The position numbers and the translations under genes are program-made. The notes beneath the pieces are model-generated. The model saw only the letters and a program-made list of their open reading frames with translations, made no database searches and had not been told where the DNA came from. Positions 2-14,954 of a DNA stretch of 25,172 nt are shown one piece after another. The first letter of the stretch is position 1, and every line of letters begins with the position of its first letter. This DNA is from a virus. Location of the stretch: the IMG/VR virus record IMGVR_UViG_3300037257_000117, positions 1 to 25,172 of that record. The stretch is one strand, 5' to 3'.

Positions 2-934
2 ATTGGTGCTGACACATCTGGTGGTAAAACATCATTTGCTGTAGATACCTTCGTTTACAATTTAATAAAGAATGCAAATGGAAATCCTGTTTCTATTCTT
101 TATTATTCTTTTGAGATGTCTAGCGATATTTTATTTGCTAAGTTATTATCCTTACATATCTTTGATACGTATGGTGAAATAATAACTTATGAAGATATTC
201 TCTCTTTAACAAAACCAATCACTCCAGAACAACTTCACTTTGTGAATATATCGAGAGATTGGCTATACGACCTTCAAACACATGTGACTATCTATGATAA
301 AGCGCTTTCTCCAAATGGAATTTATGCAACTTGTAAAGAGTGGCTTAAACAATTTGGTCGTTTTGTCGAAATTGGAGAACACAGAGAAGAGTATATAGAT
401 GATGATCCCCATCGATACAAAGTAGCTCTAATTGACCACGTAGGCTTGATAACTGGGCCAGGGTCAAAGAAAGAGAAAATTGATCTTACCGTTGACTATT
501 TTATTTACTTTAGAAATAAATGTTCCATGACTGGAGTATTTATTCAACAATTAAATAGAAATGCAAAAGCAATGGATAGAAAAACTAATGGATATGAACT
601 TATTCAATTAGATGATTTTAAAGACACTTCAGGAACCACAGATGGTTCGGATGTTGTTTTAGCACTTTATTATCCATACAGGGAAAAAATTGCGAGGTGT
701 GAGGGCTATCCTATACAAAATGTACTCAAGAAAAGATTTAGGTTACTCCAAGTCTTAAAGAACAGATATGGTATTGCTGATTCAAATAAAGGCTGTGCCT
801 TTTATGGAGAAATTGGACTCTTTAAAGAGATTCCAAGACCTGATGAAATTGGTGATTATGAGCCATACTTATCACTAGATTATTTAAAACCAAATGAAGA
901 TAACAATGAAGACATGAACGTATTTAAATTTTAG
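2..934 (+). CDS. Replicative DnaB-like helicase, C-terminal part (5' end outside window)
   Basis: Hexameric replicative helicase of the RecA/SF4 fold, predicted to unwind DNA at the phage fork. The reading frame is open from base 2, so the ATG at 116 is internal and the gene starts before the window. Seen in order: Walker A 'GADTSGGKTS' at the left edge, the DnaB-type strand 'LYYSFEMSSD', a Walker B-like 'VALIDHVGLI', the polar motif 'IQQLNRN', a DnaB-like 'DTSGTTDGSDVVLAL', and a C-terminal 'LKNRYG' like the Arg-finger region of the family. It stops at TAG two bases before the next ATG, so it heads a tight operon with the Sak4-like ATPase, an SSB-like protein and primase. The family is clear; the N-terminal domain cannot be judged. 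Confidence 0.9.
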   Translation: MGADTSGGKTSFAVDTFVYNLIKNANGNPVSILYYSFEMSSDILFAKLLSLHIFDTYGEIITYEDILSLTKPITPEQLHFVNISRDWLYDLQTHVTIYDKALSPNGIYATCKEWLKQFGRFVEIGEHREEYIDDDPHRYKVALIDHVGLITGPGSKKEKIDLTVDYFIYFRNKCSMTGVFIQQLNRNAKAMDRKTNGYELIQLDDFKDTSGTTDGSDVVLALYYPYREKIARCEGYPIQNVLKKRFRLLQVLKNRYGIADSNKGCAFYGEIGLFKEIPRPDEIGDYEPYLSLDYLKPNEDNNEDMNVFKF

Positions 935-936
935 CT

Positions 937-1638
937 ATGGCAGAATTAGGAGCAATTGTCGGCGAGAGTGGATCAGGAAAGTCAACCTCATTGAGGAACT
1001 TAGATCCAAAAGAAACATTTATTATAAATGTAGCCAGAAAAGCTCTGCCCTTTAAAGGGCGTAAGAAAAATTATAAGGAACTGACTGTTGACCCAGAAAC
1101 TCACAAATATGTGGGAAATCTGTACAACACGAGCAGTGTAGAACAGATTGCAAAGGTTTTAAAATTGATTGATAAAACTATGCCAAACGTAAAACAAGTT
1201 ATTATTGATGATAGTCAATATTTAATGAGTTTTGAGGCAATGGATAGAGCTAGTGAAAAGGGTTATGAAAAATTTACTCAAATTGCTCAGCACTTTTTCT
1301 CAGTCTTAAAAGAAGCTATGGATATGAGAGAGGACTTGAAAGTATTTATTCTGACACATGCAGAAAATACTGGGGATAACTTAAATCCTAACTTTAAGAT
1401 TAAAACAATTGGTAAAATGATCGACAACATGATTACTGTTGAAGGTTTGTTCACTTATGTATTATTTACAACAAGAATCAAAGATGATGATGGAGTTCTT
1501 CACTATAAGTTTATGACTCAAAGTGATGGTACAACCACTGCAAAAACGCCGATGGGATGCTTTGAAAGCAATCTAATAGATAACGATCTGCAATATGTAT
1601 TTGCGCAGATGGATAAATATAACAACGACGAAGAATAA
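937..1638 (+). CDS. Sak4-like AAA ATPase (phage recombination-associated)
   Basis: A 233-aa single-domain ATPase. Walker A 'GESGSGKST' lies at residues 8-16, and 'VKQVIIDDSQYL' at about 85-97 is a Walker B strand ending in two Asp. The segment 'KVFILTHAEN' follows as the expected sensor strand. Length and motif order match the phage nucleotide-binding (AAA_24) group that includes Sak4 single-strand annealing/RecA-like proteins. It sits between the helicase and an SSB-like protein; the Sak4-SSB pairing is known in phages and supports a role in homologous recombination or replication restart. Its stop overlaps the next start (TAATG). The exact recombinase activity is inferred. Confidence 0.75.
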   Translation: MAELGAIVGESGSGKSTSLRNLDPKETFIINVARKALPFKGRKKNYKELTVDPETHKYVGNLYNTSSVEQIAKVLKLIDKTMPNVKQVIIDDSQYLMSFEAMDRASEKGYEKFTQIAQHFFSVLKEAMDMREDLKVFILTHAENTGDNLNPNFKIKTIGKMIDNMITVEGLFTYVLFTTRIKDDDGVLHYKFMTQSDGTTTAKTPMGCFESNLIDNDLQYVFAQMDKYNNDEE

Positions 1639-2198
1639 TGAAACAAGTAATTGTATCTTTTAATTTTGATCCGGAAACTGAAGTAGTTTCTGAGGTTAAA
1701 TGTGTGGTCGACGGTGTCGAGAAGAAAAAGAAGACTACGAAAAAAGTAAAAGACATAGAAGAGGAAATGGCAAGTGAGGCTATTCTTGTTCTTGAACCTA
1801 ATAAAATCACTTTTAATAATAAAGCAGTTGCAGAAATGGAACTAGAATATGAAGATAGAGTGGTTATTAAATGGGAAAGACAAGGTAAGCAGATGATTCC
1901 AATTATTGGAAAAGATATTGCATTTGAAGAAGAGGGTACTGGAAACAAGATCACTAAAGCAAATACAATAACTTACAAAGGTAAAGCTAATGCAGTTCTT
2001 GCAGAAGCAGGATCAGAATTCACAATAGAATTAGTTAAAGAAGGAATTTGGAAACTAATTTCAACATCAGCACCTATTACTGCAGATGAGACTTTCACAT
2101 TAGAGGAAGTTATCAAAGAGGCAGAAGATACTGAGCCAGACCTTTTAGTTGAAACAGATGAGGAAACAGAAATAGATGAATTACAATTTCAACTTTAA
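1638..2198 (+). CDS. Acidic hypothetical protein between Sak4-like ATPase and SSB
   Basis: I do not recognise this 186-aa protein. It has a short N-terminal beta-rich segment, a Lys-rich patch (KKKKTTKKVK, residues 29-38), a Glu-rich central part, and a strongly acidic tail ending near 'EETEIDELQFQL'. The acidic, hydrophobic-tipped C terminus resembles in style the protein-interaction tails of SSBs. It starts on the last base of the upstream stop and ends 10 bases before the SSB-like gene, so it is translated with both. A recombination or SSB-partner role is inference from position only. Confidence 0.6.
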   Translation: MKQVIVSFNFDPETEVVSEVKCVVDGVEKKKKTTKKVKDIEEEMASEAILVLEPNKITFNNKAVAEMELEYEDRVVIKWERQGKQMIPIIGKDIAFEEEGTGNKITKANTITYKGKANAVLAEAGSEFTIELVKEGIWKLISTSAPITADETFTLEEVIKEAEDTEPDLLVETDEETEIDELQFQL

Positions 2199-2208
2199 TT
2201 AAACAATT

Positions 2209-2925
2209 ATGAGTTTTTCATTCGCAACAACAGCAGGAGCGTCACAAAGTAGCGCAAAACCAAGATTAAGCGGAAACAATATTTATACAGTCAAATTTGA
2301 TGGCTGTGAAATTCAAGATATAAAGGGTGTGAAAGACCCCAGTAAAGAATATAAAGTTCTTAAACTGAAATTTTCGAATGACGAAGGTACATACGAGCAT
2401 ACCATTTTTGAACCAAGACCCGAAGACTTCGAAAGAGGTGAAAGTAAATATAATGATAAAACTACGGGAGAGGAAAAGAAAATTCCACAAGCATCTGGAG
2501 TGGAAAACGTGATGTTATTATTTAAACATGCTATTGACGCAATCAGTCCTGCTATTGGAAAGCAGATTGATGAGGGGACCAAAAATCTTGGCGCCAAAGA
2601 TTGGACGGACTTAAGAACCCTAGTATCTAAAATTCTAGATCTAGGAAAAGGGGCCGAAGTTCAAATTAAACTATTAACTAACAGCAAGGGTGAAGCTACA
2701 TTCCCCGGTTATTTCTCAGGTATCAGTAAAGAAGGAAAAGCGTATGTACGTAACAACTTTATCGGTCACAAATTAGCATTCAGCGCTTATGAAATCTCCA
2801 AAGTTAATAACGCAGCAACAGCTAAACCTACAAAAGTGGATTCATTTATTCCAAATATCCCTATCAACACTGAGTCGACCAGTGGTTTAGATCTGGACTT
2901 TGAAATTGATGCACTATTATTGTAA
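2209..2925 (+). CDS. Single-stranded DNA-binding protein (SSB-like)
   Basis: A 238-aa protein with a low-complexity N terminus (residues 1-20, Ser/Ala rich), a beta-rich core containing 'YTVKFDGCEIQDIKG' and a 'GYFSGISKEGKAYVRNNFIG' segment suggestive of an OB fold, and an acidic C-terminal tip 'LDLDFEIDALLL'. The acidic amphipathic tip is typical of phage SSBs that recruit replication partners. The neighbours (Sak4-like ATPase upstream, primase downstream) fit an SSB. No strict sequence signature defines this family, so the call rests on tail, size and context. A 50-base gap separates it from the primase. Confidence 0.6.
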   Translation: MSFSFATTAGASQSSAKPRLSGNNIYTVKFDGCEIQDIKGVKDPSKEYKVLKLKFSNDEGTYEHTIFEPRPEDFERGESKYNDKTTGEEKKIPQASGVENVMLLFKHAIDAISPAIGKQIDEGTKNLGAKDWTDLRTLVSKILDLGKGAEVQIKLLTNSKGEATFPGYFSGISKEGKAYVRNNFIGHKLAFSAYEISKVNNAATAKPTKVDSFIPNIPINTESTSGLDLDFEIDALLL

Positions 2926-2975
2926 TTGATAAATCTTTGGGTCTCTAACACATTATAATAGAAAAGAAATAAGTG

Positions 2976-3989
2976 ATGTATGAATTAGACTTGGGACCAA
3001 AGATAACAAAGGAACTTTTACTTTCAAAATATTCTCAAGAAACGTTCTTTGAACATTACTTGGGAGTTCCTGTTAAAAAAGGACTATTTGTTAGCCCTTC
3101 GGTCCTTAGACCAGACCACAAACCAACTTGTTCTTTCTACAAGAATAAATCCGGAGTTCTTAAATTTAACGACTTTGCTGGACCTACTTTTGATTTTGTT
3201 GGCTGCGTAATGCAGCTCTATCAATGTAGTTATTATAAAGCATTGCGAATTATTGCTAATGACTTTGGAATTATTCAAGTAGAAAAAATGGAGATTCATC
3301 CTCCTAAGATAACTTATACAGGTTATGAATTGGAGGAAACTTCTCGATCTGTTATACAGGTTGAGACGCAAGAATTCTCTAAAAAAGAGTTGGAATGGTG
3401 GTCAAGTTTTGGAGTTGGCGTCACAACACTAAAACGGTTTAAGGTTTATTCTATTAAATCTGTTTTCCTAAATGGAGTTTATTTCACCTCTTCTTCTGAC
3501 TCCTCCCCGATATATGGTTATTTTGGAGGAGAAAATTCGGATGGAGATGAACTTTGGAGATTGTATATGCCGACTAAGCGAAACTATAGGTTTCTTAGTA
3601 ATTGGAGCGCTACAATGATTCAAGGTGCAAAGCAAATGCCTAGGTCTGGAGAGTTTATAGTTGTCACAAAGTCCTTAAAGGATGTGATGGCATTATACGA
3701 ATTCGGGATTCCAGCAATTGCTCCAAACAGTGAAAACTTATTCTTAACAGAGGCTCAATATGAAAAGCTCCAACAAAGGTTTAGTTCTATATATTTATTA
3801 TATGATAAAGACTTGCCTGGAGTACGAGCTGCTCAAAAAATCAGAAAGAAGTTCCCTCTAACAAAAGTGCTTTTAACGCCCAAAGTTAAGGACTTTTCTG
3901 ATTATGTTAAAAAATATGGAATGATGAAAACATTTAATTTAGTAGAAGAATGGCTAAAAGAAAGAGAGAAGAATCTGCCGAATGAGTAG
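2976..3989 (+). CDS. DNA primase, DnaG/TOPRIM type
   Basis: A 337-aa primase predicted to lay RNA primers for the fork helicase. The N terminus (about residues 20-100) follows the CHC2 primase zinc-domain pattern ('TFFEHYLG...PTCSFY...FNDFAG...FDFVGCVMQLY') but lacks most zinc-binding Cys. The TOPRIM domain covers about 225-330: 'IVVTKSLKDVMALYEFGIPAIAPNSE' has Ser where the usual Glu sits, and 'YLLYDKDLPGVRAA' supplies the acidic pair. I choose the ATG at 2976; a GTG lies just before it in frame. The 3' end overlaps the resolvase ORF by 40 bases. It ends in TAG, so TAG is a stop here. Confidence 0.8.
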   Translation: MYELDLGPKITKELLLSKYSQETFFEHYLGVPVKKGLFVSPSVLRPDHKPTCSFYKNKSGVLKFNDFAGPTFDFVGCVMQLYQCSYYKALRIIANDFGIIQVEKMEIHPPKITYTGYELEETSRSVIQVETQEFSKKELEWWSSFGVGVTTLKRFKVYSIKSVFLNGVYFTSSSDSSPIYGYFGGENSDGDELWRLYMPTKRNYRFLSNWSATMIQGAKQMPRSGEFIVVTKSLKDVMALYEFGIPAIAPNSENLFLTEAQYEKLQQRFSSIYLLYDKDLPGVRAAQKIRKKFPLTKVLLTPKVKDFSDYVKKYGMMKTFNLVEEWLKEREKNLPNE

Positions 3990-4408
3990 AGGATAAGGTT
4001 GAGGAAGCCACGCCTATAAAGAAGAAGAGGAGTGGCAGTTACTCCAAGGCTAAAGGGTCCGCTTATGAAAGACAGATTGTAAATGAGTTGAAGGAATTAA
4101 CCGGATCGAATGAGATATCGACAAGTCGGGCATCGAGCAAGAAGCTTGATGACATGAAGATCGATATAAATGACGAGAGTGGAAAGTTACCATGTTATTT
4201 TCAGTTAAAGAAAACACAGACAACTCCATCTGTTAAAAAGATAAATGATGATGTTGGAAAAATCGACAAACCATTGTGTATATTATGGAATATACAGGAA
4301 AAGAAAGAGGGTAATGTCAATATTACCTCCAATGGAGAATATGCAATAATACCAAAATCATTCTTTTATACTCTACTCGAGAGTTACTTAAAAGAAAACG
4401 AAGAATAA
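3950..4408 (+). CDS. Holliday-junction resolvase-like PD-(D/E)XK nuclease with in-frame TGA at codon 12
   Basis: A 152-aa protein if TGA at 3983-3985 is read as Trp. The core matches archaeal-type Hjc resolvases: 'KGSAYERQIVNEL' (residues 35-47, catalytic Glu in ER), then 'KKLDDMKIDI', then 'YFQLKKTQ' at the (E/Q)xK position. The only sensible start is ATG 3950, after an A/G-rich leader and within the primase 3' end. Between the TGA and the KGSAYER motif there is no ATG, GTG or TTG. The same gene later uses TGG ('CILWN'). Alternatives are a nonsense-inactivated gene, a non-AUG start such as ATA, or readthrough. A resolvase would clear branched DNA before packaging. The family call is fairly firm; the recoding is inferred. 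Confidence 0.72.
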
Positions 4409-4534
4409 GAAAGGCGAACAAGGGTTTATAGTAGCTAATTTCCAAACCAGAAACCCTGAGGTTATAATATAGTCGACAGTCCACGAGGTAATTCTCTAGG
4501 AGCGTTGTTAGGGAAATTTTTTTAAAATACAGAT
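4409..4534 (+). other. Non-coding gap with a hairpin, possible structured leader
   Basis: No ORF fits this 126-base gap. It holds a 7-bp inverted repeat (AGGGTTT at 4421-4427, AAACCCT at 4451-4457), an 'ATATAGTC' string resembling the S element of group I introns, and a T-rich stretch just before the next ATG. No matching P, Q or R elements are visible, so an intact intron is excluded. It could be a structured 5' leader of the HAD gene or a relic of an insertion. Confidence 0.3.
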
Positions 4535-5065
4535 ATGAAAAAAACAAAATTAAAAATTGTACTGGACATTGATAATGTCGTAGCAAATTGGGTTCCAACC
4601 TTTTGTGCTCGATATAATTGTCCTATTCCGACTACATGGAATAATCCCCATGTTACGCCAGAACGTCTTGAAGAATTAAGAAAGGATAAAAACTTTTGGA
4701 CATCTTTACCAGTTCTGCATTTTCCGGGCTTTCAACCAATTGGTTTTTTAAGTGCCAGGAGTATTCCAAAAGCTTGGACTCATGAATTTATGGTAATTAA
4801 TGGTATTCCTGGCAGAGGAAATATCCATCAAGTTCCTTGGGGACAATCAAAAATTGATAAATTGAAAGAGATGGGAGCAGAGATCTTCATCGATGATAAG
4901 CTTGAAACATTCTTAGAATGTTCAAATAATGGTATCTTCTGCCTGTTAATGGATGCTCCACATAATCAAGGTATTTCTACTCCATATCGCATTTATGACT
5001 TAAATATTGATACTATTACCAAATTATGGCAAAAGTCACAATCCGTCCAGACTCCATCCAGATAA
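4535..5065 (+). CDS. HAD-type 5'(3')-deoxyribonucleotidase-like phosphatase
   Basis: A 176-aa protein with the HAD nucleophile motif 'IVLDIDNVVANW' (about residues 8-19, DxDxxxA style) and a late 'GAEIFIDDKLETF' that fits the acidic Mg-binding motif of NT5C-type 5'-nucleotidases. 'IGFLSARS' at about 70-77 matches the phosphate-binding Thr/Ser motif region. Such phage enzymes dephosphorylate nucleoside monophosphates and help balance or recycle dNTP pools, in keeping with the dUTPase, ThyX and MazG-like genes further along. The 3' end overlaps the next gene by 40 bases. Substrate specificity is not visible. Confidence 0.7.
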   Translation: MKKTKLKIVLDIDNVVANWVPTFCARYNCPIPTTWNNPHVTPERLEELRKDKNFWTSLPVLHFPGFQPIGFLSARSIPKAWTHEFMVINGIPGRGNIHQVPWGQSKIDKLKEMGAEIFIDDKLETFLECSNNGIFCLLMDAPHNQGISTPYRIYDLNIDTITKLWQKSQSVQTPSR

Positions 5066-5859
5066 TTAAGTTAACTGATGAAGAATATTTTCGGGATTAT
5101 CCTGATTATGTTTCTAATTCAAAGTTAAGCTTAATTGATCCATCAGAAGGAGGTTCTGTAGAAAAGTATAATAGTGGATTTCAGAGTTCTTATTCAGAGT
5201 CTTTTGAATTAGGATCTGCTGTTCACTCTATGATTCTACAACCTGAATTCTATGAGATCTCAGAGATTAAGAAACCTTCTGGAAAGTTGGGATTGTTTGC
5301 CGACGAGATGTATAAGTATCAAGAAGAGATTATTCTTACTTTAAGAGAAGAAATGTTGTTAGCTTCAAAAGCAGTTGATTATTATGCTAATAGTTTTACT
5401 GAAAATCGTCAAGCTGCAGCACTTGAAGCTTGTATTCCTTATTGGAAAGCAAGAAAAGAATTTGAGGAAAGACTTGTGTCTGATAAAGAACAAATTCGTT
5501 TATCAGAAGCTATGGCCTCTAAGTTAGATATGTGTATGGGGGGAATTAATGGAAATAAGAAAATTCTAAATACATTAAGACCTACTGGAATATTATCAAA
5601 TGCTGAGGTTTATAATGAGTATGCAATATTTGCTATTGTTGATATTGAACTTGATGATGGACGAACTGTTGATCTAGGAATTAAAGCAAAGCTTGATAAT
5701 TTTACGATTAACCATGAAACTGAAGAACTAACTCTTAATGATTTGAAAACAACTGGAAAACCAGTTAATTTCTTCATGGGAAATAATGTGCGAGTAGGTA
5801 ATGACTTTGTTTGGTATGATGGATCTTTTCAAAAGTTTCATTATTACAGACAAATGGGT
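5026..5859 (+). CDS. PD-(D/E)XK nuclease (RecB/Cas4-like), exon 1
   Basis: First exon (278 codons) of a 341-aa nuclease of the RecB-like PD-(D/E)XK group. Seen: 'LGSAVHSMI' (the G-x-x-x-H helix motif of RecB nucleases), 'IKAKLDNFTI' with the metal-binding Asp, and 'LTLNDLKTTGK' with the D-x-K catalytic pair. The last motif, 'FHYYRQMG', is cut exactly at a codon boundary by the intron and resumes in exon 2. Read unspliced, the frame continues 10 codons into the intron and stops at 5892, giving a protein without the C-terminal helices. It probably acts as an exonuclease in phage recombination with the Sak4-like protein and SSB; that role is inferred from context. Confidence 0.8.
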
Positions 5860-6021
5860 GAATTACACGCCCCAACAATAGAAATATTGTAAGCAAACCC
5901 TTTTAATTGCTGGGAATTCCATTATTATCAGAATAATGGTGGACAATCAGCAGCTAAGGATTAAACAAAATAAATTTTAAAATCTTCTGATATTTATAAT
6001 TTTTATATGACATTTATTTAA

Positions 6022-6029
6022 TAACTTTG
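6022..6029 (+). promoter_or_regulatory. Bacteroidota-type -7 box inside the intron
   Basis: TAACTTTG matches the TAnnTTTG -7 consensus of Bacteroidota promoters and lies 25 bases before the HNH ATG. No clear -33 TTTG is visible. It would let the endonuclease be transcribed independently of the host gene. Confidence 0.45.
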
Positions 6030-6054
6030 TAGTTATTAATTAAAAAGAAGATCT

Positions 6055-6681
6055 ATGAAAAATTGTAAAATTATTGGAGAAAAATTCGGACCTTTTGAGG
6101 TTTTAGACACAGTTAGACATCAAAATCCAGGTGGAGGGATAGTTACTAAATATAAATGTAAATGTTTAAAATGTGGTGAAATTCATATTAAACAATTACA
6201 TCATTTAAAAGGATTTAAAGGAGATGGATGTTTACTTTGTACTCCTAAATTAACTGCTTTACCTAGAGCATCAATACACATTAGAAATTACACTAATTAC
6301 AAACAAAAAATTATTAGTCAAACAAAGCATGAGTTTAATTTAACTTTTGAAGAATTTGATTCATTAGTTATTAAAAACTGTTATTATTGTAATTCTGAAC
6401 CTGTGTTTCCGGAAAGATTTAAAACTGAATTTAAAAATAGAGAACTTGTTTCTTTTAACGGAATTGATAGAATAGATTCTTCTAAAGGATATATTTTTGA
6501 AAATTGTATTCCTTGTTGTTCTGTTTGTAATAGAATGAAATCGGATATGATGCAATCTGAATTTTTAAATCATATAAATAAAATTTATAACTTTAATCAA
6601 AGTTCAACGACTAGTCCAATGGACGTAGCCCCAAGTGGTGGCGAAATGGAGGGAATCCTAACAGATAATGCTGAGGATTAA
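6055..6681 (+). CDS. HNH homing endonuclease (intron-encoded)
   Basis: A 208-aa endonuclease inside the group I intron. The N terminus has a Cys pair set ('CKCLKCG' and later 'CLLC') likely to bind zinc. The C-terminal half carries a Cys-framed HNH fold: 'CYYC' then 'NGIDRIDSSKGYIFENCIPC' followed by 'CSVCNRMKSD', matching phage HNH enzymes with the 'GIDRID..KGY...N' core. The last roughly 25 residues are encoded by the ribozyme core (R element and P8 region), and the stop overlaps the S element by two bases. This fused arrangement explains the odd low-complexity tail. It should cut intron-less alleles of the nuclease gene to spread the intron. Base composition is very AT-rich, as for its neighbours. 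Confidence 0.9.
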   Translation: MKNCKIIGEKFGPFEVLDTVRHQNPGGGIVTKYKCKCLKCGEIHIKQLHHLKGFKGDGCLLCTPKLTALPRASIHIRNYTNYKQKIISQTKHEFNLTFEEFDSLVIKNCYYCNSEPVFPERFKTEFKNRELVSFNGIDRIDSSKGYIFENCIPCCSVCNRMKSDMMQSEFLNHINKIYNFNQSSTTSPMDVAPSGGEMEGILTDNAED

Positions 6682-6763
6682 GATATAGTCTAATCTATAT
6701 GGTAACATATAGCAGTTCAAAAGAGAACGCATACAAATTAACGAATTGTGTGGAATATAAATG

Positions 6764-6955
6764 ATGTATCTTTGGCTCTTGAATTGTGCTATGCACTATA
6801 CAAGAGGTATTGATTATAAACTCAAAGCTAATATGCTAGTAGTAGAAACAATTCCTACATTTCAAAGTAGAATTTACGCTGTGAAAAAGAAACATATTCT
6901 TCAAGGAATTGAAGAGTTCAAAAATTTATTAATACTTGTAGCAGAAAATGGATAG
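6764..6955 (+). CDS. PD-(D/E)XK nuclease, exon 2
   Basis: Second exon, 63 residues plus TAG. Joined to exon 1 it reads 'YYRQMG' then 'MYLWLLNCAMHY', completing the Q/Y helix that RecB-like nucleases have after the D-x-K motif, and the rest forms a plausible C-terminal alpha/beta end. Reading it as a separate gene from the ATG at 6761 would use the last intron codon as start and gives a fragment with no recognisable domain, so exon status is preferred. The stop overlaps the next gene's start by 8 bases. Confidence 0.85.
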   Translation: MYLWLLNCAMHYTRGIDYKLKANMLVVETIPTFQSRIYAVKKKHILQGIEEFKNLLILVAENG

Positions 6956-7331
6956 AATTGCAGTTGATTCAACGGTCACCAGCTTAGAGAAGTTAGAATA
7001 TGTGGATAAACTTGATGCTTATAACAAAGTGTTTTCAACAGGAAACCTTGGAGTAGATATGGGTGATAAACTTGTTCTTATTTCTCTTGTTGCATTGACT
7101 TGGTCTAAGATGAAAGAAAAAAATCCACAGATATTACCATTAGACATTTTGATGACTTTAACAGGAGAGACAAAAAGTAATAAAGCTTTTTATCAATTCT
7201 TAGAAGCTTTATCAATAATTGTTACTGATATGTCTTATGGATGCACCAAATTTGATGCTTGCGGACTAAAGTCTTCGCAGGAAATTTTAAACAAAATTAA
7301 AGAAATATTAAGTACATGGCTCCCATTCTAG
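6948..7331 (+). CDS. Hypothetical protein, helical
   Basis: A 127-aa protein that I do not recognise. It is mostly alpha-helical by composition, with three Cys-free helices and then 'YGCTKFDACGLKSSQEIL' near the C terminus. There are no membrane segments or signal peptide. It overlaps the nuclease exon by 8 bases and the AAA+ gene by 16 bases, so it is translationally linked to both and may work with one of them. It ends in TAG. Confidence 0.6.
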   Translation: MDRIAVDSTVTSLEKLEYVDKLDAYNKVFSTGNLGVDMGDKLVLISLVALTWSKMKEKNPQILPLDILMTLTGETKSNKAFYQFLEALSIIVTDMSYGCTKFDACGLKSSQEILNKIKEILSTWLPF

Positions 7332-8248
7332 AAGAATCATCTCCCTTATTATTCTCTCTTGGTAGTCTATTTGATACTGAGGAAGAAACAGATAGACAAG
7401 AAAATGTTTCAATGTGGGTTCAGGACAAGGATATTATCCGAGCCTCAACCGATTTGACAATTCTTAAAAAACTCGAATCCGGAGTTTATTGTGTTAATTT
7501 TGATAGAGAGAACGGTCTTTATTGTATTGCCATGAAGCCTGTTTCAGATGAATTATTTATATTTTCGGACTCAATTACCTCAAAGCTTATGCAAGAGATT
7601 AATTTATTCTGGACAAAAGCTCCTGTTTATAAGGAGAATAACTTAATTCATAAGCGTGGGATCCTTTTAGAAGGATGCCCTGGTACTGGTAAAAGTTCTA
7701 TTATTACTCTTTTATCTAATGAAATCATTAGTAAAGGAGGAGTTGTATTTAAAGTTACGGGATTTAGAAATCTAAATTACTACGTAGACTTTATGCGATA
7801 TCAATTTAGAAAACTGCAACCAGATACCCCAGTAATTACAATTCTTGAGGATTTAGACCAATATGGCGATGTAGCTGAAGAGCTACTTGATTTTCTAGAT
7901 GGGAAAACTCATTTAGATCATCATGTTATTATTGCGACATCAAATAATACTGAAGAAATACCTGACACTTTTCTACGACCTAGTAGAATTGACTTAAAGA
8001 TTGAAATTCCTTTACCGAGTGAAGAAACTCGAAGAGAGTATTTTGTATTTAAGAAAGTGCCTGAGGCCGATATCGAAAAGTTGGTAGAGTTAACTGATAA
8101 TTTATCATTAGCTGATCTAAAAGAAGTTTATATTTGTATTTACTTATTAGACTATAGTATCGAAGACGCTATAGAAAAAACCACTAAGCCCCGTGAAAAG
8201 AAGAATTACTTGCAATTTAATGCAAACGGAGGTAGTATGGCGATTTAA
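7316..8248 (+). CDS. AAA+ ATPase (BCS1/FtsH-like ATPase core)
   Basis: A 310-aa single AAA+ module. The first about 100 residues are a family-specific N domain. Walker A 'GCPGTGKSS' lies at 120-128, Walker B 'ITILEDLDQ' at 174-182, sensor 1 'IATSNNTE' at about 206-213, then the Arg-finger stretch 'FLRPSRIDLKIEI', and a small C-terminal helical lid. The motif style is that of BCS1/FtsH/26S-type AAA+ proteins, which remodel or unfold proteins. No protease or membrane segment is seen. In the replication gene block it might act as a clamp-loader-like or protein-remodelling factor; substrate unknown. Confidence 0.8.
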   Translation: MAPILEESSPLLFSLGSLFDTEEETDRQENVSMWVQDKDIIRASTDLTILKKLESGVYCVNFDRENGLYCIAMKPVSDELFIFSDSITSKLMQEINLFWTKAPVYKENNLIHKRGILLEGCPGTGKSSIITLLSNEIISKGGVVFKVTGFRNLNYYVDFMRYQFRKLQPDTPVITILEDLDQYGDVAEELLDFLDGKTHLDHHVIIATSNNTEEIPDTFLRPSRIDLKIEIPLPSEETRREYFVFKKVPEADIEKLVELTDNLSLADLKEVYICIYLLDYSIEDAIEKTTKPREKKNYLQFNANGGSMAI

Positions 8249-8293
8249 CAAAAAATTAACATACTTTATAGCATTTTATTCAAACTAAAGTGC

Positions 8294-8301
8294 TATCTTT
8301 G
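8294..8301 (+). promoter_or_regulatory. Bacteroidota-type -7 promoter box
   Basis: TATCTTTG fits TAnnTTTG exactly and lies in the 120-base gap between the AAA+ gene and the next ORF, 68 bases before its ATG. A matching -33 element is weak. Together with the terminator at 8973-9008 it makes the next gene a one-gene transcription unit. Confidence 0.5.
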
Positions 8302-8368
8302 TATTGATAATCAGATGAAATAACACTAATAGATAAAGAATAAATTTAAATTTAAATGTGAATGAATT

Positions 8369-8947
8369 ATGAAAACAGTAGAAGCTCAAGGTTATAACAA
8401 AGAAAAAGCACTTGAATCAACAGGTTTAGACGTCCAATTGGACATGTTAAAGAACGCAACACAGGCTTGGAAGAAAGCTGGTTCGCCGATGAATACCAAA
8501 GATCTTAATAGATTTATGGCAGAATACATCAAACGTAATAAACTTGTAGGTGCATACTTAGTTGTTGAAGCCTCCTCTGACGACACTCGTCTTCGTCCTT
8601 ACAGCGTTATCAACGAAACAACAAAAGGAAAACGCAAAACGACTACAACTTATCAAATTAAAGAAGCTGAATTGAAAGTTAAGTTTACAACTATGATTAC
8701 TGACGAAAACGAAGAAATCGCAGTACCAGTTGTTGATGTAGTAGCTGTCGGAGCTGTTGAAGCTCGCGCAGACAAGAAAGACACTGCTCTGAAAATTATG
8801 AAAGAGCTTATCGAAGTAAACAAAAAAGATTATGTAGTTGAAATTGTTAAGGAAGTTACCGAAGGACAAAAATATGCCGGTTATGGCCAATATACACCTT
8901 CGAAATCTGCTAAACTTGGCAAATTCTTATTCTTTGTACAAGAATAA
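8369..8947 (+). CDS. Hypothetical protein, probably highly expressed single-gene unit
   Basis: A 192-aa protein with no recognised domain. The N-terminal helical third contains 'MNTKDLNRFMAEYIKRNKL', a middle part is basic ('KGKRKTTTTYQIKEAELKVK'), and the C-terminal third is helical with an alternating charge pattern and a Tyr/Gly-rich 'YAGYGQYTPSKSAKLG'. There are no Cys and just one Trp. Codon choice differs from its neighbours, with more GTA/GCT/CGT/AAC-type codons and fewer rare ones. It is flanked by its own promoter box and a strong terminator. That suggests an abundant protein, perhaps nucleic-acid-binding; this is inference. Confidence 0.65.
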   Translation: MKTVEAQGYNKEKALESTGLDVQLDMLKNATQAWKKAGSPMNTKDLNRFMAEYIKRNKLVGAYLVVEASSDDTRLRPYSVINETTKGKRKTTTTYQIKEAELKVKFTTMITDENEEIAVPVVDVVAVGAVEARADKKDTALKIMKELIEVNKKDYVVEIVKEVTEGQKYAGYGQYTPSKSAKLGKFLFFVQE

Positions 8948-8972
8948 TCATTGATTAACTAACTAATCACAC

Positions 8973-9008
8973 AGGTCAGCAGTCGCAAGATTGCTGACCT
9001 TTTTCTTT
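8973..9008 (+). terminator. Rho-independent terminator
   Basis: A 12-bp stem (8973-8984 with 8989-9000, one G-U pair) closed by a GCAA tetraloop and followed by a T tract broken by one C. It ends the single-gene unit of the 192-aa protein. Confidence 0.9.
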
Positions 9009-9043
9009 AATATTAACGGCGTAACAGCTTATAAAACTAATAC

Positions 9044-10381
9044 ATGAACACAGACGTAACACACGATGCCACTATTGATGAGGCTATGCAGGAAAGATCC
9101 AGCATAGAAACCTTAAGAGATAGTGCAAACAGAATTACTGGATATAGATTTAGCATTTTAGTACATGATAAACCTACATTGTCTGGAGAGATGACACGTG
9201 AGGAAGTTGAGAAAATGTATAGATTGTATTCCCAAGAAGGAGCAAGTCTAACTCAACGTACAATCGTAAGAGAATTTCCGAATTATACATTTCCGCAATT
9301 CAAAAAGATCCTTCGAGCTTTTAACATCACCAAATCGTCTGCTCCGTTAGCTCCTCATACTCTAGAGGAACTTACAACGGAAGAGGCTGTAGAGATTGCT
9401 TTACAGAACAAAGAAAATGATTTCTTTAAGAAATTAGAGCAAGAAAGGGGTAAACGCACCGAACAGCGTTTAAAAGAAATTACAAAAGAGTATCAAACAT
9501 TTAAAGAAAAGGCCAATGACTTTGAAGCCTTCTTCGCATCTTTAGACATTACTGCTCATATTGAAGCCATTAGGCCTCAAGAAAATGCAGATAAAGTTAT
9601 TGTGGTATATCTAAGTGATATGCACATTGGTGCTGATGTTAGTAGATATTCAATCTTTGCAAATGAGTATAATGCAAAGGAAGTTAAGAAAAGATTAAAC
9701 AAAGTACTTCAATCTGTTCTACAATTGGCTCAAATGACCGGAGCTACAGATATCATCGTATGTAATATTGGTGATTCTCTGGATGGATATGATGCCCAAA
9801 CTACTAGAGGTGGGCATAATTTACCTCAAAATATGGATAATAAAGATCAACTAAAGAACTTTGTTCAACTAATGGTAGATTTCTTCGGAAGTCTTGCTAA
9901 TAGTGGATACTTTATGTCGATTAAGTATTACTGTGTAGAAGGTGGTAATCATGACGGAGATTTTGGATATGCTGCAAATTTTGCATTGCAATCCTATCTT
10001 CGTTCAGCTGGTATCGAAGCTGTGATATTTGACCAGTATATTGACCATTTCAAATATGGTAAACATACTTTTGTCCTATGTCATGGTAAAGATGCTAAGG
10101 ATGTCTTTAAAAATATGCCTTTAGTTTTAAGTAAAGGTGTAGAAAATCAAATTGATGAATACTTAGACTATCACAGTCTAAAAGGCAATATTCACTTTGT
10201 AAAAGGTGATTTGCACCAATCAGCAACCACTTATGGAAAGCGTTTCAGATACAAGTCTGTAGCTTCTTTATTTGGCTCAAGTGCTTGGATTCATAAAAAC
10301 TTTGGTAATACCAAAGCAGCTGTTGATATTGACATTATTGATGGAGATAAGATTTTGGAAACAAGAGTAATTCTCAATTGA
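9044..10381 (+). CDS. Calcineurin-like metallophosphoesterase, TGA-terminated
   Basis: A 445-aa protein. The N-terminal 100 residues look like a DNA-binding helix-turn-helix region ('SLTQRTIVREFPNYTFPQFKKILRAF'). A helical linker follows at about 105-165. The catalytic domain has the full two-metal set: 'DMHIG' (192-196), 'GDSLDGY' (243-249), 'GNHD' (301-304), 'CHGKD' (346-350) and 'GDLH' (388-391). The family includes Mre11/SbcD nucleases and related phosphodiesterases; an HTH-linked form suggests a DNA-processing role. It ends in TGA at 10379-10381, one base before the next ATG, and is the only early gene here to do so. Reading that TGA as Trp would add 26 residues (second TGA included) before a TAG at 10457. 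Confidence 0.82.
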   Translation: MNTDVTHDATIDEAMQERSSIETLRDSANRITGYRFSILVHDKPTLSGEMTREEVEKMYRLYSQEGASLTQRTIVREFPNYTFPQFKKILRAFNITKSSAPLAPHTLEELTTEEAVEIALQNKENDFFKKLEQERGKRTEQRLKEITKEYQTFKEKANDFEAFFASLDITAHIEAIRPQENADKVIVVYLSDMHIGADVSRYSIFANEYNAKEVKKRLNKVLQSVLQLAQMTGATDIIVCNIGDSLDGYDAQTTRGGHNLPQNMDNKDQLKNFVQLMVDFFGSLANSGYFMSIKYYCVEGGNHDGDFGYAANFALQSYLRSAGIEAVIFDQYIDHFKYGKHTFVLCHGKDAKDVFKNMPLVLSKGVENQIDEYLDYHSLKGNIHFVKGDLHQSATTYGKRFRYKSVASLFGSSAWIHKNFGNTKAAVDIDIIDGDKILETRVILN

Positions 10382-10382
10382 T

Positions 10383-10985
10383 ATGACAAGACAACGCATT
10401 CACATAGACTTTGATCGAAATGTAGTAACTGGAAAAGAGTTGAAGGAAGCGTTCTTTAGAACAACTCTGGCTCCTCTAGAAAAAACTATCGAACAAGTCT
10501 ATGTGTCTAAAGCTCCTAAAGCAACTGATTTCCATGTGGAAATTGCTGCCGAAGGCCATAATGATGGAACAGTTTTGTTTTATTATAAAGGAAAGATTGC
10601 GTTTATGGGTGAGCAGGAAGTTAAAAGAAATGTTTCAGCAACTCGAACAGAGTTAAGTAAACAGCTTTTGCAACTTCTTCATTATCATTACCAAAAAGTA
10701 GTAGTGCCCCCCAATCCTCCTAAATATAATTATAAAGTCTTTATATTAAACAGTAGTAAATTCTTTGCTTATGTTTATTTAGAAGATTTAACAGAAGTTC
10801 TTAACCAGCTTGTTCCGTTATTTAAAGAGATTGAGTGTTCTGCTTCTCAGACTTGGAATCAACCAAGATTACAAATGGCCATGAAATCTATTATGGATAG
10901 CATTCCTATTGTTGTTCATGAGATTACAGATGGCTTTAAGTTGAATGATTGTTATCGAGAAATGTATTTACATTGTTTAGATTAA
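10383..10985 (+). CDS. Hypothetical protein
   Basis: A 200-aa protein not recognised. The first about 110 residues are mixed alpha/beta with 'FHVEIAAEGHNDGTVLFYYKGKIAF', followed by a Pro-rich hinge 'VVVPPNPPKYN', then a helical C-terminal half ending 'YREMYLHCLD'. The hinge suggests two domains. It starts one base after the metallophosphoesterase stop and ends one base before the next gene, so it is part of that operon. Confidence 0.6.
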   Translation: MTRQRIHIDFDRNVVTGKELKEAFFRTTLAPLEKTIEQVYVSKAPKATDFHVEIAAEGHNDGTVLFYYKGKIAFMGEQEVKRNVSATRTELSKQLLQLLHYHYQKVVVPPNPPKYNYKVFILNSSKFFAYVYLEDLTEVLNQLVPLFKEIECSASQTWNQPRLQMAMKSIMDSIPIVVHEITDGFKLNDCYREMYLHCLD

Positions 10986-10986
10986 T

Positions 10987-11190
10987 ATGAAAGAAGTAAT
11001 TGTTGCCTTAAATGAAGACATCAAAATCAATTTGCAAAAAATAAAATTATTGCAGAAAGAAATTGATGATAATAAAGTTGCTATTGCAGCTTTACAAAGA
11101 GTATGTAAACATGCTTACGGATGTACAGGTCATGATAGTCATAAAGACCATTTTACTTGTTTAATCTGTGGCGATACTTATAGTGCCTAG
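10987..11190 (+). CDS. Small coiled-coil protein with zinc-binding tail
   Basis: A 67-aa protein. Residues 1-38 form a heptad-like coiled coil rich in Lys, Ile and Leu. The tail has 'CKHAYGC' and then 'HFTCLICGDTYSA', a set of Cys and His (C-x-H, C-x-x-C) that could hold one zinc. Small phage zinc-ribbon proteins of this layout are common; function is unknown. Ends in TAG. Confidence 0.6.
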   Translation: MKEVIVALNEDIKINLQKIKLLQKEIDDNKVAIAALQRVCKHAYGCTGHDSHKDHFTCLICGDTYSA

Positions 11191-11237
11191 ATATCATACT
11201 TATAGATACAGTTGTTAAACGAATTTAATATACCTTA

Positions 11238-11996
11238 ATGGATATTACTGTATCAGAATTGTTGAAAGGAAAACCGACAATTATCAAAAATAAAGAGTTT
11301 TTCCAAACTAAATCATATGTAGAACCATTCTTAAATAAGATGGCAGCTCTTACAAGTGATTTTAGGATTCAAGTTAAAATGCCAGATCAAATAACTTTTG
11401 GTCCAGATGCACAAGACTTGACTTATAATAGAGTGTTGATTCAGGCAGTGATGCCTCAACAACAGATGGTAGATGGTCATGAAGAAGTAATTGGCTTTCT
11501 ATATGGAATTGATGTCAAACGTCCTGTTGTAAAAATTTACAGAGGATATTTAAATCAAGCCTGCACTAATCTAACTGTATTTAATCCTCAATGGATTCAG
11601 ATACAAGAGTTAGTTCCAGGTGATCCTATTAATTATTCTGCTATTAAGAATCTTATGGAGCAGACTAGTGACTTTCAAACTAGACTTCAGAAAATGAAAG
11701 AAACCACAATTGAGCGCGATAAACGTAAACAATATCTAGGGGAATGGGTTGATTACTCTTTGAGAGAGGCCCAAGATTATGGATTTGGTAAAGTCAAGAT
11801 CGCTGTAAGTACTCCTATTGATGCCTATAAACAGTTGTTTATTGATCAAGATAGTGAATACTATATTCCTGAAGGAATTGATCCAACTTTGTTCGATGTT
11901 TATAATAGCTTTACTCAAATTGTTACTGACGATAAGAAAGATATTATGAATAAATTTGAGAAAACTATGATTATTAATCGTTTACTTAACGTCTAA
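11238..11996 (+). CDS. Hypothetical protein with 'NQACTN' motif
   Basis: A 252-aa protein. A notable segment is 'YRGYLNQACTNLTVFNPQWI' (about 102-120), which recalls the CTN-containing core of DUF932-type phage/plasmid proteins, though I cannot confirm membership. The second half is helical with many Lys/Glu and ends 'MIINRLLNV'. There is no signal peptide or membrane segment. It ends with TAATG overlap to the next gene. A 47-base gap upstream has no recognisable promoter. Confidence 0.6.
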   Translation: MDITVSELLKGKPTIIKNKEFFQTKSYVEPFLNKMAALTSDFRIQVKMPDQITFGPDAQDLTYNRVLIQAVMPQQQMVDGHEEVIGFLYGIDVKRPVVKIYRGYLNQACTNLTVFNPQWIQIQELVPGDPINYSAIKNLMEQTSDFQTRLQKMKETTIERDKRKQYLGEWVDYSLREAQDYGFGKVKIAVSTPIDAYKQLFIDQDSEYYIPEGIDPTLFDVYNSFTQIVTDDKKDIMNKFEKTMIINRLLNV

Positions 11997-12211
11997 TGAA
12001 ATTTGCGGTAGGATATATTAATTTCTTTGATAATGATCTTATTATTGAAGTCATTGAAGCTAATAACTGGAAATTAGCATTGTCTAAGCACAGTCATTTA
12101 ATTAACTCTGGAATTGATTTATTTTTCGGAGATACATTAGAAAATGTAAAAGTGCAGGCTTTTAATTGTGATATGATGATTGATGTTGTTTTATTAGATG
12201 AAGATTGTTAA
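11996..12211 (+). CDS. Small hypothetical protein
   Basis: A 71-aa acidic alpha/beta protein ('MKFAVGYINFFDNDLIIEVI' start). No motif is recognised. It starts on the last base of the upstream stop and overlaps the next gene by 14 bases, so real translation is likely. Two Cys are present (in 'FNCDMM' and at the C terminus), not in a metal-binding pattern. Confidence 0.55.
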   Translation: MKFAVGYINFFDNDLIIEVIEANNWKLALSKHSHLINSGIDLFFGDTLENVKVQAFNCDMMIDVVLLDEDC

Positions 12212-12467
12212 AGTTATCTATGATGATAAAACGAGCTTTATTCTAGACATTGTTAATAATCTAGACGTAAAAGTATTGATTGATAGTTTTAACATTGATG
12301 ATTATCGACAAAAGAAAAAAGCTCTCCCAATTATGACAAGAAATGGAACTACTCAAGTTCCTCTTGTCGTATTTGCGGATGAAAACTTAGATGAATATGC
12401 TGCTATTTGGAGCGAAACAAAGCCAGATTGGGAATTAGAAATAAAGAAAATTTTAGAAAATGAATAA
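12198..12467 (+). CDS. Small thioredoxin-fold-like hypothetical protein
   Basis: An 89-aa protein. 'KKALPIMTRNGTTQVPLVVF' at about 41-60 resembles the central strand and cis-Pro loop ('xVP') of thioredoxin/glutaredoxin folds, but the CxxC active site is absent and there are no Cys. It could be a redox-dead or structural thioredoxin fold; this is a tentative reading. It overlaps the genes on both sides by a few bases. Confidence 0.5.
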   Translation: MKIVKVIYDDKTSFILDIVNNLDVKVLIDSFNIDDYRQKKKALPIMTRNGTTQVPLVVFADENLDEYAAIWSETKPDWELEIKKILENE

Positions 12468-12630
12468 ATATCGAATTTATTTAAACAATAATGATCTCAC
12501 AGATAGTGTTGATATATCAGCAGATTATCCTCAGGTTATGGGAAACATAATCATCTTTTATATAGGAGATGAAGTTGTAGCAAGTATACCACCAGCCTTA
12601 GTTTTTATTAGATTACCTAAAGAAGACTAA
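12460..12630 (+). CDS. Small hypothetical protein (56 aa)
   Basis: An ATG-TAA frame of 56 residues, beginning 'MNKYRIYLNNNDLTDSVDIS' and ending 'FIRLPKED', that exactly fills the gap between two genes: it starts 8 bases inside the upstream 3' end and ends one base before the next ATG. Composition is that of a small beta-rich soluble protein. No homology is recognised. Confidence 0.6.
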   Translation: MNKYRIYLNNNDLTDSVDISADYPQVMGNIIIFYIGDEVVASIPPALVFIRLPKED

Positions 12631-12631
12631 T

Positions 12632-12853
12632 ATGATGATGTTTTTTACAGAAGATGATATTGTTTCCTTTGGAAATTATATGATGTCTTCATTAAGAGAA
12701 AGAAAAATCAGAGAGGCTGTAGAGCTTTCTGAAGACGAAGATCAAATCCAAGCTAGATTGAGATCAGTGAGTGATGCCGATCTAGGTAATTGGGCTTATC
12801 TAATGAATCAAGCTGTTGCCCAAGGTACAGCAAATAATCGTTCTGAAGAATAA
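12632..12853 (+). CDS. Small hypothetical protein, acidic helical
   Basis: A 73-aa protein starting at a run of three ATG codons, so the exact start is uncertain by two residues. It is helical and acidic, with 'LRERKIREAVELSEDEDQIQ' near the middle. Its stop overlaps the dUTPase start (TAATG), so the two are probably translationally coupled. Function unknown. Confidence 0.55.
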   Translation: MMMFFTEDDIVSFGNYMMSSLRERKIREAVELSEDEDQIQARLRSVSDADLGNWAYLMNQAVAQGTANNRSEE

Positions 12854-13347
12854 TGAAAGTAGATGTTGTAAATCAAGGAATTAATGAACTTCCAAAATAT
12901 GCTAAAGCTGGTGATTCTGGAATGGATTTAAGAGCTAATTTTTCAAATGGTTTGAATGAAGATTTAATGTATGGCTGTGCTTTTGATACTGAAAGAGAAG
13001 TTTTGATTATGTTTAGTGGCGGTCGATGTGTAGTTTCAACTGGATTATACACAGCATTTCCACCTGGATATGAAATTCAAGTTAGGGGAAGAAGTGGATT
13101 AGCTATCAAGTATGGTATTCAAGTGTTAAATGCTCCTGGCACAATTGATTCTTCTTATAGAGGAGAATTGGGAGTAATCTTAATGAACTCGGGTAGTGAA
13201 CCTTTTGAAATTGTACATGGAGATAGAATTGCCCAAGCTATACTTGCGAAAGTATGCTTAGTAGAATGGAATCAACTGGCAAGTCTAGAAGATCTTTCTG
13301 CTTCAGATAGAGGAAAGACTGGATTTGGTGATAGTGGTATTAAGTAA
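12853..13347 (+). CDS. dut: dUTP diphosphatase (dUTPase)
   Basis: A 164-aa trimeric-type dUTPase that hydrolyses dUTP to dUMP and PPi, keeping uracil out of phage DNA and feeding ThyX. All five family motifs are visible: 'AGDSGMDLRA' (about 19-28), 'RGRSGLAIKYGI', 'GTIDSSYRGELGVIL', 'HGDRIAQAIL' and the C-terminal P-loop-like 'RGKTGFGDSG'. There is a modest insertion after motif 1 ('GLNEDLMYGCAFDTEREV'). It overlaps the ligase start (TAATG). Confidence 0.95.
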   Translation: MKVDVVNQGINELPKYAKAGDSGMDLRANFSNGLNEDLMYGCAFDTEREVLIMFSGGRCVVSTGLYTAFPPGYEIQVRGRSGLAIKYGIQVLNAPGTIDSSYRGELGVILMNSGSEPFEIVHGDRIAQAILAKVCLVEWNQLASLEDLSASDRGKTGFGDSGIK

Positions 13348-14519
13348 TGATAATTGAAACAATATATCTAGTTACAAGAAATGCTCGAGACAAAGTTCAA
13401 GTAGTTATTGCTGAATTAGAACAAATTGGAAACAACTTTGTGATTCACAGAACTACTGGACAATATGAAGGAAAAATGACTGATCAACCTGAACTTGTTA
13501 TTGAGAAAGGTAAAGCTAAACGATCAGTCATACAACAAGCAGAACTTGAATTTAATAGTATTGTTAGTAAGTATCAAGACAAAGGTTACAAAAGATTAGC
13601 CTCTCTTACTAATAAGAAGTTTGAAGATATTTTAGCAAGTGAGATGGACGCTTTAGTTCCTACTATAAAATCTGACTCATCAGGAAATCTAAAACCAATG
13701 TTAGCTAAGGATTACAATAAATGTCAGAATTCAGTTCTAGACAAAAGAATGTATTGTAGTCGTAAGTTAAATGGTGTAAGATGTATGATGAAATGGGGTG
13801 GCAATAATGTTGTAACCGTTTCCAGAGGTGGAAAGAATTACGACAATGCTTGTCAACAACTAACTCCACAATTAAGCGAGTATTTACGTTCACATCCAGA
13901 TGTAATTCTAGATGGCGAGCTTTATCATCATGGTCATTATCTACAAGAATTATCTGGTATAGCCCGAAAGGAAACTTGGGACGAAAGATGTGAAATTCTT
14001 GAGTATTGGATTTATGATATAGCTGATGATAAAATGGAATTCGTAGATAGACTTGGCATTCTTAATGAATTGAGAGTTGAAACTTTTAAAGATCTCCAAA
14101 AAATTAAAGTTTTAGAACATTATCCAACTGAATGTTGGGATGATGTCAAACGGCTCCACGATAAGTGGGTAGGAGAAGGTTATGAGGGCGCAGTAGCTCG
14201 AAAACCGAACAAACCATATGAGTTTGGAAAGAGAAGTTCTACAATGATTAAGATTAAAGCTTATCAAGATGCTGAGTTTACAATTATTGATTATCGAGAT
14301 GGTTTAAGAGATGAAGATTTTTGCTTCATTTGTGAAACTGAAGATGGCAAAGCATTTGCTGCTAAGCCTATAGGTGATCGAGAATTAAAGGCTGAGTATA
14401 TGAACAACATAGATAACATAATTGGAAAGAAAGGGACCATAAAATACTTCGAGATTTCTCGAGAGGGTATTCCAATGCAACCAATCTTTCAATCAGTACG
14501 TTACGAGGAGGATCTATAA
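13347..14519 (+). CDS. ATP-dependent DNA ligase with N-terminal WGR-like domain
   Basis: A 390-aa nick-sealing ligase. Residues 1-90 look like a WGR domain ('IEKGKAKRSVIQQAELEFNS' and 'DKGYKRL'). The adenylation domain has motif I 'KLNGVR' with Lys140 as the likely AMP-accepting residue, motif III 'ILDGELYHHG', motif IV 'EGYEGAVAR' and motif V 'MIKIKAY'. Motif I is KLNG rather than the usual KxDG, a variant seen in phage ligases. The OB-like C-terminal domain runs from about 310. The stop overlaps the thioredoxin start. It would join Okazaki fragments made by the helicase-primase set. Confidence 0.9.
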   Translation: MIIETIYLVTRNARDKVQVVIAELEQIGNNFVIHRTTGQYEGKMTDQPELVIEKGKAKRSVIQQAELEFNSIVSKYQDKGYKRLASLTNKKFEDILASEMDALVPTIKSDSSGNLKPMLAKDYNKCQNSVLDKRMYCSRKLNGVRCMMKWGGNNVVTVSRGGKNYDNACQQLTPQLSEYLRSHPDVILDGELYHHGHYLQELSGIARKETWDERCEILEYWIYDIADDKMEFVDRLGILNELRVETFKDLQKIKVLEHYPTECWDDVKRLHDKWVGEGYEGAVARKPNKPYEFGKRSSTMIKIKAYQDAEFTIIDYRDGLRDEDFCFICETEDGKAFAAKPIGDRELKAEYMNNIDNIIGKKGTIKYFEISREGIPMQPIFQSVRYEEDL

Positions 14520-14812: not shown

Positions 14813-14816
14813 AGCT

Positions 14817-14954
14817 ATGACAATAATTAAGCCATGCACATGTGAACATAAATTTCAAGACGCAATTTATGGAAAAGGTAAGAGAGTTCATAACGAAAGT
14901 TTTGACGGTAAGCGTTCTAAGTGTACTGTTTGCAAATCTGTAAAGAATAAGTAA
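14817..14954 (+). CDS. Small Cys-rich protein (45 aa)
   Basis: An ATG-TAA frame of 45 residues that fits between thioredoxin (4 bases upstream) and the next gene (1 base downstream). It is highly basic and has 'CTCEH' near the start and 'CTVCKSV' near the end, a CxC...CxxC arrangement that could bind one zinc. Function unknown, but the phase and fit to its neighbours support a real gene. Confidence 0.6.
   Translation: MTIIKPCTCEHKFQDAIYGKGKRVHNESFDGKRSKCTVCKSVKNK

Follow-up and report, generated by a model that had tools for sequence, protein, structure and literature searches.

An in-frame TGA near the start of an early Hjc-like nuclease gene: a likely translational gate in a recoded virus

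Why should a gene in the replication block of a phage that reassigns TGA carry that codon in frame, 11 codons past its ATG, on a strand that otherwise mostly avoids it? We address this question here for the 25,172-base virus record IMGVR_UViG_3300037257_000117, the whole of which was analysed and is called the window below. Its replication genes lie on the + strand in an early/middle block (2..19347, +), recognized from gene content and PHROGs, which holds the nuclease gene in question. A late-strand gene encoding 1559 amino acids (20417..25096, −), identified from open frames and a late-protein search, contains 12 in-frame TGA codons, which indicates that the phage reassigns TGA. From gene content and layout, we take the phage to be crAss-like; megablast of window bases 1-25000 against named phages returned no match. 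A near-identical relative, the 178-kb record L002/G001, has a nuclease 99% identical to that of the window, TGA included, and 8 TGA codons in its terminase. At the early/late boundary sits a phage tail lysozyme (virion) gene (19686..20372, +) with two internal TGA codons, at codons 115 and 146; homologous-looking genes in G007 and G012 also contain two.

The nuclease gene (3950..4408, +) starts with ATG (3950..3952), terminates in TAA, and encodes 152 amino acids with TGA read as Trp. The TGA is codon 12 (3983..3985, +). The single TGG of the frame specifies the core residue Trp113 (4286..4288, +), in contrast to the TGA at codon 12. The first table 11 start codon past the TGA is a TTG at 4088, which is codon 47, inside the core helix and beyond Glu40. 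The preliminary description of this locus, that a TGA lies 11 codons past the ATG with no ATG, GTG, or TTG before the catalytic core and that the gene also uses TGG, is thus borne out. Immediately upstream is the primase gene (2973..3989, +), which ends in TAG, contains no in-frame reassigned stop, and overlaps the start of the nuclease by 40 bases.

Some neighboring genes only seem to share the feature. The TGA of an exonuclease-like gene (9044-10381) is its terminal stop (10379-10381), and the open reading frame at 18858, ending TGA-TAA, is likewise merely an apparent exception. An open reading frame at 17609-18226 has TGA at codon 4 and overlaps the preceding gene; translation more likely starts at TTG 17630 or further downstream. 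In relatives, too, many early genes are terminated by the reassigned stop, such that late readthrough would give C-terminal extensions.

The encoded protein is fairly labeled an Hjc-like nuclease of the PD-(D/E)XK type, and cleavage of Holliday junctions is its putative activity, judged from profiles and models. PHROGs assigned it to the RusA-like Holliday junction resolvases (phrog_244, E 1.4e-6). Pfam PDDEXK_15 matched 17 of 19 relatives at E values up to 0.1 (best 1.5e-6), the window's protein scoring 0.01, below the curated cut-off, and Pfam Hjc gave weak matches in 1/19 and 2/6 members. A profile of 45 sequences searched against PDB sequences returned only four matches at E up to 1, all of them archaeal Hjc (E 0.001-0.008). 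In the 45-sequence alignment, the start Met, G36, E40 (4067..4069, +), D67, D72 (4163..4165, +), Q85, and K87 are invariant, with Gln85-x-Lys87 (4202..4210, +) placing QxK where (D/E)xK is expected. A first fold model (19 sequences, pLDDT 66) had no useful PDB match. The second, built from 45 sequences (pLDDT 82), had 1gef (Hjc) as its top match in Foldseek (E 0.083, probability 0.84) and 1gef_E as its top match in VIA-align (Z 7.6 over 90 residues, 3.2 A), with unrelated nucleases next at Z 5-6.7. The likeness to archaeal Hjc consists of the sole PDB profile matches and the top fold match, and it is set against about 16% identity, the QxK motif, and modest fold scores, which other nucleases of the fold nearly reach. 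The first 26 to 30 residues were of low confidence in both fold models; because the stop shifts in position among relatives while the codon stays, the residue itself is unlikely to be the target. Three nuclease queries against named phages matched just two records.

Comparison of relatives shows how consistently the codon is kept. The clade of the window's gene comprises 24 of the 29 loci of a first scan plus L143, or 16 distinct genes, the window's own included as L002; L026, cut at its 5′ end, and L027-L030, which lie outside the clade and lack the stop, were left out. An N-terminal TGA at codons 10-18 is present in 12 of the 16 genes, and none has TGG there, which answers in favor of TGA the check proposed in the preliminary description. 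Among the remainder, L023 is without the N-terminal stretch but carries TGA at codons 34 and 97, L143 has TGA at codon 100 (read also in its copy in G042), and L005 and L006 have TTA instead, though the record of L006 has 5 TGA codons in a late gene. Across the 12 genes with the N-terminal stop, which share ancestry, Trp at this place is encoded by 12 TGA and 0 TGG, versus 2 TGA and 10 TGG for core Trp (Fisher p 6.7e-5). When 26 other two-codon columns (Lys/Glu/Gln, common to at least 11 of these 12 genes) were inspected, one codon was used throughout in 2.

More distant relatives, from a second scan and a phage collection, have TAG 2 to 5 codons past the ATG. A third scan confirmed 98 loci, and the best 80 of these were kept; 79 were readable (L245 is cut at its 5′ end), including L246, which needed an upstream ATG and was read by eye. 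Clustering these best 80 of 98 loci at 85% gave 33 representatives, 31 with TAG at codons 3-6 and two with TAG moved to codon 20 (L279) or 36 (L292). At 95% clustering of the same best 80 of 98, TAG occupies codons 3-6 in 46 of 50, is moved in 2, and is absent from 2 (L256 and L258), L256 having CAA at the matching place. The Gln codons of the 33 genes (best 80 of 98 loci) are 31 TAG and no CAA/CAG within codons 1-6, against 3 TAG and 156 CAA/CAG elsewhere (Fisher p 1.5e-32; this value and that for the TGA clade overstate independence, because the genes share ancestry and have few independent origins). Two of the three TAG codons elsewhere are the moved ones. Nucleases of this clade, for example L116:19830-20393, are extended by about 40 residues at the N-terminus, and 1 of 6 members has a weak I-HmuI/NUMOD-like match; the sequence gives the impression of an Hjc-like core that has acquired a homing-endonuclease DNA-binding module.

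The identity of the stop tracks the code of each genome. The reassigned stop of each phage was established from long open frames, a search for late proteins (with matches in 9 of 29 records), and one for terminase (in 23 of 50). The N-terminal stop agrees with the late-gene code in 26 of 26 records that have both this stop and late-gene evidence (7 TGA and 19 TAG, counted as records, not independent events). The TGA records are G001, G003, G007, G012, G014, G016, and G020, G014 also showing two frames with TAG. The TAG records are G040, G043, G045, and W01 plus 15 assigned via terminase (G050, G054, G055, G057, G059-G066, and G069-G071), the code of G060 resting on a single TAG. G009, G015, and G023 have the N-terminal stop and show no late genes, and since labeling them TGA-recoded would be circular, they stand outside the 26. 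As the stop near the start of the gene is TAG in TAG-recoded relatives, it follows the genome's code. Selenocysteine at the TGA was set aside, as TAG fills the same role in related phages. Some recoded records have no N-terminal stop: there is none in G005 (TGA-recoded) or in G026, G036, and G049 (TAG-recoded), and G033 and G042, which are recoded and have near-identical nuclease genes, have TGA at codon 100 only.

Where a terminase was found in a recoded record, it lies on the strand opposite the nuclease (22/22). With ARAGORN, suppressor tRNAs that match the reassigned stop were located on the late strand of G001, G003, and G012 (anticodon TCA) and of G026, G043, and G049 (CTA), most other tRNAs of these records being on the early strand; there is none inside the window itself. 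When 31 records were searched for a CTA tRNA-like pattern, 13 had putative matches; in 11 of these a match lies on the late strand (G055 has one on each strand), and in G061 and G068 on the early strand only. The other 18 of the 31 were without a match to this pattern, which overlooks tRNAs with other arms (e.g., that of G026). With both searches taken together, 15 of the 17 records with a suppressor tRNA or tRNA-like match have one on the late strand. Unusual tRNA-like genes bearing a CTA anticodon are also present in the early-strand tRNA arrays of G001 (24197-24271; L041) and G009 (18412-18485; L088), though TAG ends genes there. An idle second suppressor is described for Zeta crAss-like phages in a portion of PMC12386605, and these genes are possibly of that kind.

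Relatives outside both clades lack the feature. No reassigned stop was found in 12 distinct nuclease genes (L027, L028, L029, L030, L141/L164, L142, L146, L147/L148, L157, L159, L160, and L162; L159 is cut at its 3′ end). Three of the records concerned, G026, G036, and G049, are nonetheless TAG-recoded; G029 (L030) has a terminase without inside stops, and the other records in this group have no late-gene evidence. TAA in place of the gate was considered for L142, but the gene starts after the TAA and simply lacks an early stop. L164 (JAUNDJ010000001.1) is a 155-kb contig in a Bacillota metagenome bin that carries a phage-type nuclease, a primase, and a TAG-containing terminase and is probably a misbinned phage. 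A tree built from the last 125 residues of 45 nucleases groups the genes with N-terminal TAG in one clade with 100/100 support and places those with N-terminal TGA in the other half, among relatives without the stop, some of them TAG-recoded. The topology suggests that the feature probably had two origins, with losses, or less probably a single origin with a switch of code.

The nuclease also stands apart from other early genes. Clustering of the early-strand genes from 19 records gave 37 families that were present in at least 6 records, the G001 nuclease having been added by hand. When the best frame per record was taken, a reassigned stop was found automatically in 12 of 19 nuclease copies and by eye in 3 more (G043, G045, and W01, whose N-terminal TAG the automatic count overlooks), giving 15 of 19, of which 14 are N-terminal. 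Among the 34 copies of three homing-endonuclease-like families, set apart by eye with Pfam run on some members only, 22 had a reassigned stop. In the other 33 early families, 5 of 453 copies (112,676 codons) were flagged and 1 is clearly genuine, a helicase (G007:28632-29933; L067) with an N-terminal Trp encoded as TGA at codon 14; among the relatives listed, those that reach this point have Trp there without a reassigned stop. The other four flags consist of one where the match starts at profile position 286, which resembles an insertion, two that precede the homologous start, and one that is the terminal stop of a preceding same-frame gene. A single rule for N-terminal stops applied to all families, which recovers G043 and G045, gave 13/19 for the nuclease, 4/34 for the homing-endonuclease-like families, and 2/453 for the others. 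The adjacent primase had no inside reassigned stop in 29 of 29 matched records (30 searched). The 15 of 19 nuclease copies, set against the 5 flagged and 1 clearly genuine of 453 other early copies, indicate that the TGA is no chance event. In 19 of 20 records, the density of internal reassigned stops over the early strand as a whole is 0 to 1.62 for every 1000 codons; in G043, which has late genes on that strand, it is 3.96. A host in which TGA constitutively means Trp is disfavored by this asymmetry between early and late genes.

The avoidance of TGA by all other early genes, as initially claimed for the window, holds for the other + strand genes of 1-19347, which have no internal TGA; it does not extend to the lysozyme on the same strand or to homing endonucleases, which carry reassigned stops. 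Free-standing GIY-YIG, HNH, LAGLIDADG, and DUF723-type genes in early blocks often contain several reassigned stops and few or no TGG codons, in contrast to the genes around them. Such endonuclease genes occur on the early strands of G001, G003, G007, G009, G016, G023, G040, G043, and G045; examples are L041:11912-12523, L090:1432-2346, and L194:12881-13789. Pfam endonuclease/NUMOD models matched 16 of 20 recoded early-strand genes with E values of 0.01 or less, though several matches did not reach the curated cut-off. The 20 were chosen from 89 listed recoded early-strand genes, many of which looked like homing endonucleases and some of which are late genes on that strand. A run of early-strand genes at the far end of G012 (198811-206900; L058 and L059) has many TGA and almost no TGG codons and looks like a late-read module on the other strand.

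We consider it likely that the TGA is a selected translational gate on the nuclease, opened late by a phage suppressor tRNA; the comparison of relatives supports this part of the preliminary description. The nuclease would be carried on early/middle mRNA together with the primase. As long as the host release factor still terminates at TGA, ribosomes starting at the nuclease ATG would halt after 11 residues. Late transcription would then supply the suppressor tRNA (the near-identical 178-kb relative encodes it on its late strand, with anticodon TCA), TGA would be read as Trp, and full-length nuclease would appear early enough to cleave branched DNA ahead of packaging or while it proceeds. TAG, presumably read as Gln, would play the same role in TAG-reassigning relatives. 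For crAss001, part of PMC10136315 reports transcription of replication genes 10-30 min after infection and of structural genes from 30-60 min; with such timing, the mRNA of primase and nuclease would precede the suppressor tRNA.

The codon might instead limit dosage with no role in timing, low readthrough keeping a toxic nuclease scarce throughout infection. The N-terminal position fits this equally well, since any in-frame stop near the start cuts yield. We regard it as improbable, because any leaky codon or a weak start would suffice for a mere brake, whereas the stop is the phage-reassigned one in all 26 records with late-gene evidence and the suppressor tRNA is mostly on the late strand.

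Distinctly less probable is a short leader reading frame ended by the codon, with the nuclease starting downstream by reinitiation or at an unusual start codon. A downstream start in relatives, which the preliminary description had named as evidence against a gate, does exist in some genes but is not general. GTG, TTG, or ATG follows soon past the stop, before the YER motif, in 4 of 12 TGA genes, and a start lies within 40 codons in 19 of 33 TAG genes (best 80 of 98 loci); in the window's nuclease, ATA at codon 23 could serve such a reading. No ATG, GTG, or TTG occurs in the stretch tested in 8 of the 12 TGA genes, the window's included, or in 14 of the 33 TAG genes from the best 80 of 98 loci. 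Reinitiation, moreover, would work with any stop, yet only the reassigned one is found here in the 26 records, and the conserved domain of the TAG clade begins directly after the TAG.

Chance or weak constraint acting on an ordinary reassigned Trp or Gln codon seems a very improbable account. In its favor, reassigned codons are common in the late genes of these genomes, and one early helicase has a single TGA. Against it stand the low frequency of internal reassigned stops on early strands, the complete absence of synonymous codons at this place (TGG in 0/12 TGA genes and CAA/CAG at codons 1-6 in 0/33 TAG-clade representatives of the best 80 of 98 loci), and the presence of the stop elsewhere in four genes that lack an N-terminal one (L023, L143, L279, and L292). 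Finally, fixation of the TGA by the overlapping primase end and an assembly or sequencing error can both be dismissed. In the window's gene and five relatives, the TGA does sit in the region shared with the primase (40-49 bases), directly ahead of the primase stop (TGAGTAG). In L004, L015, L016, L019, and L024, however, the primase has already ended before the TGA, and the codon recurs in records from separate, independent metagenomes.

Recoded crAss-like phages, with TAG reassigned to Gln or TGA to Trp, share with the window's phage the codons, the suppressor tRNAs, and the early/late split. Their read-through codons lie mostly in late genes, according to a section of PMC7886860, and part of PMC10136315 suggests that recoding may time structural and lysis genes. 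The present case differs in that it concerns one codon at the 5′ end of a single nuclease gene of the replication block. The crAss-like PDDEXK_b nuclease (PMC7886860 and PMC10136315) is likewise of the PD-(D/E)XK type and located beside replication genes, a likeness drawn from its description, and the passages on it in these two papers mention no reassigned stop. Sections of PMC12386605, PMC7886860, PMC10607447, PMC11210395, PMC10879173, PMC9523058, and PMC10136315 treat late-gene recoding and describe no gated early nuclease; novelty is claimed provisionally. Why phages switch code in mid-infection is debated, since wholesale late-gene recoding could be drift or defense evasion. A lone stop in an early gene, present elsewhere in the gene when its usual place is without it and agreeing with the genome's code as either TGA or TAG, is difficult to account for unless it is regulatory. 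This offers a clean test gene. It also suggests that the little-understood nuclease of the crAss-like replication block is needed late.

Gene 49 of phage T4 encodes endonuclease VII, a Holliday-junction resolvase. In the T4 e, soc, 49, and I-TevI mRNAs, RNA helices sequester the start; from early transcripts, e is translated about 100-fold less and I-TevI not at all, and mRNA structures are shown or implied for stand-alone homing endonucleases (section 29 of PMC3014915). Comparable classes, namely a nuclease, GIY-YIG/homing endonucleases, and a lysozyme, carry reassigned stops in the phages described here. The block differs, being in T4 a helix that the late promoter avoids and here a codon that would be opened by a tRNA. 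On balance, we lean toward a broader reading in which a code-matched stop serves as a temporal switch on early-transcribed DNA-cutting enzymes (the Hjc-like nuclease and homing endonucleases) and on lysozyme, having arisen separately in TGA- and TAG-recoded phages and achieving by codon meaning what T4 achieves by mRNA structure.
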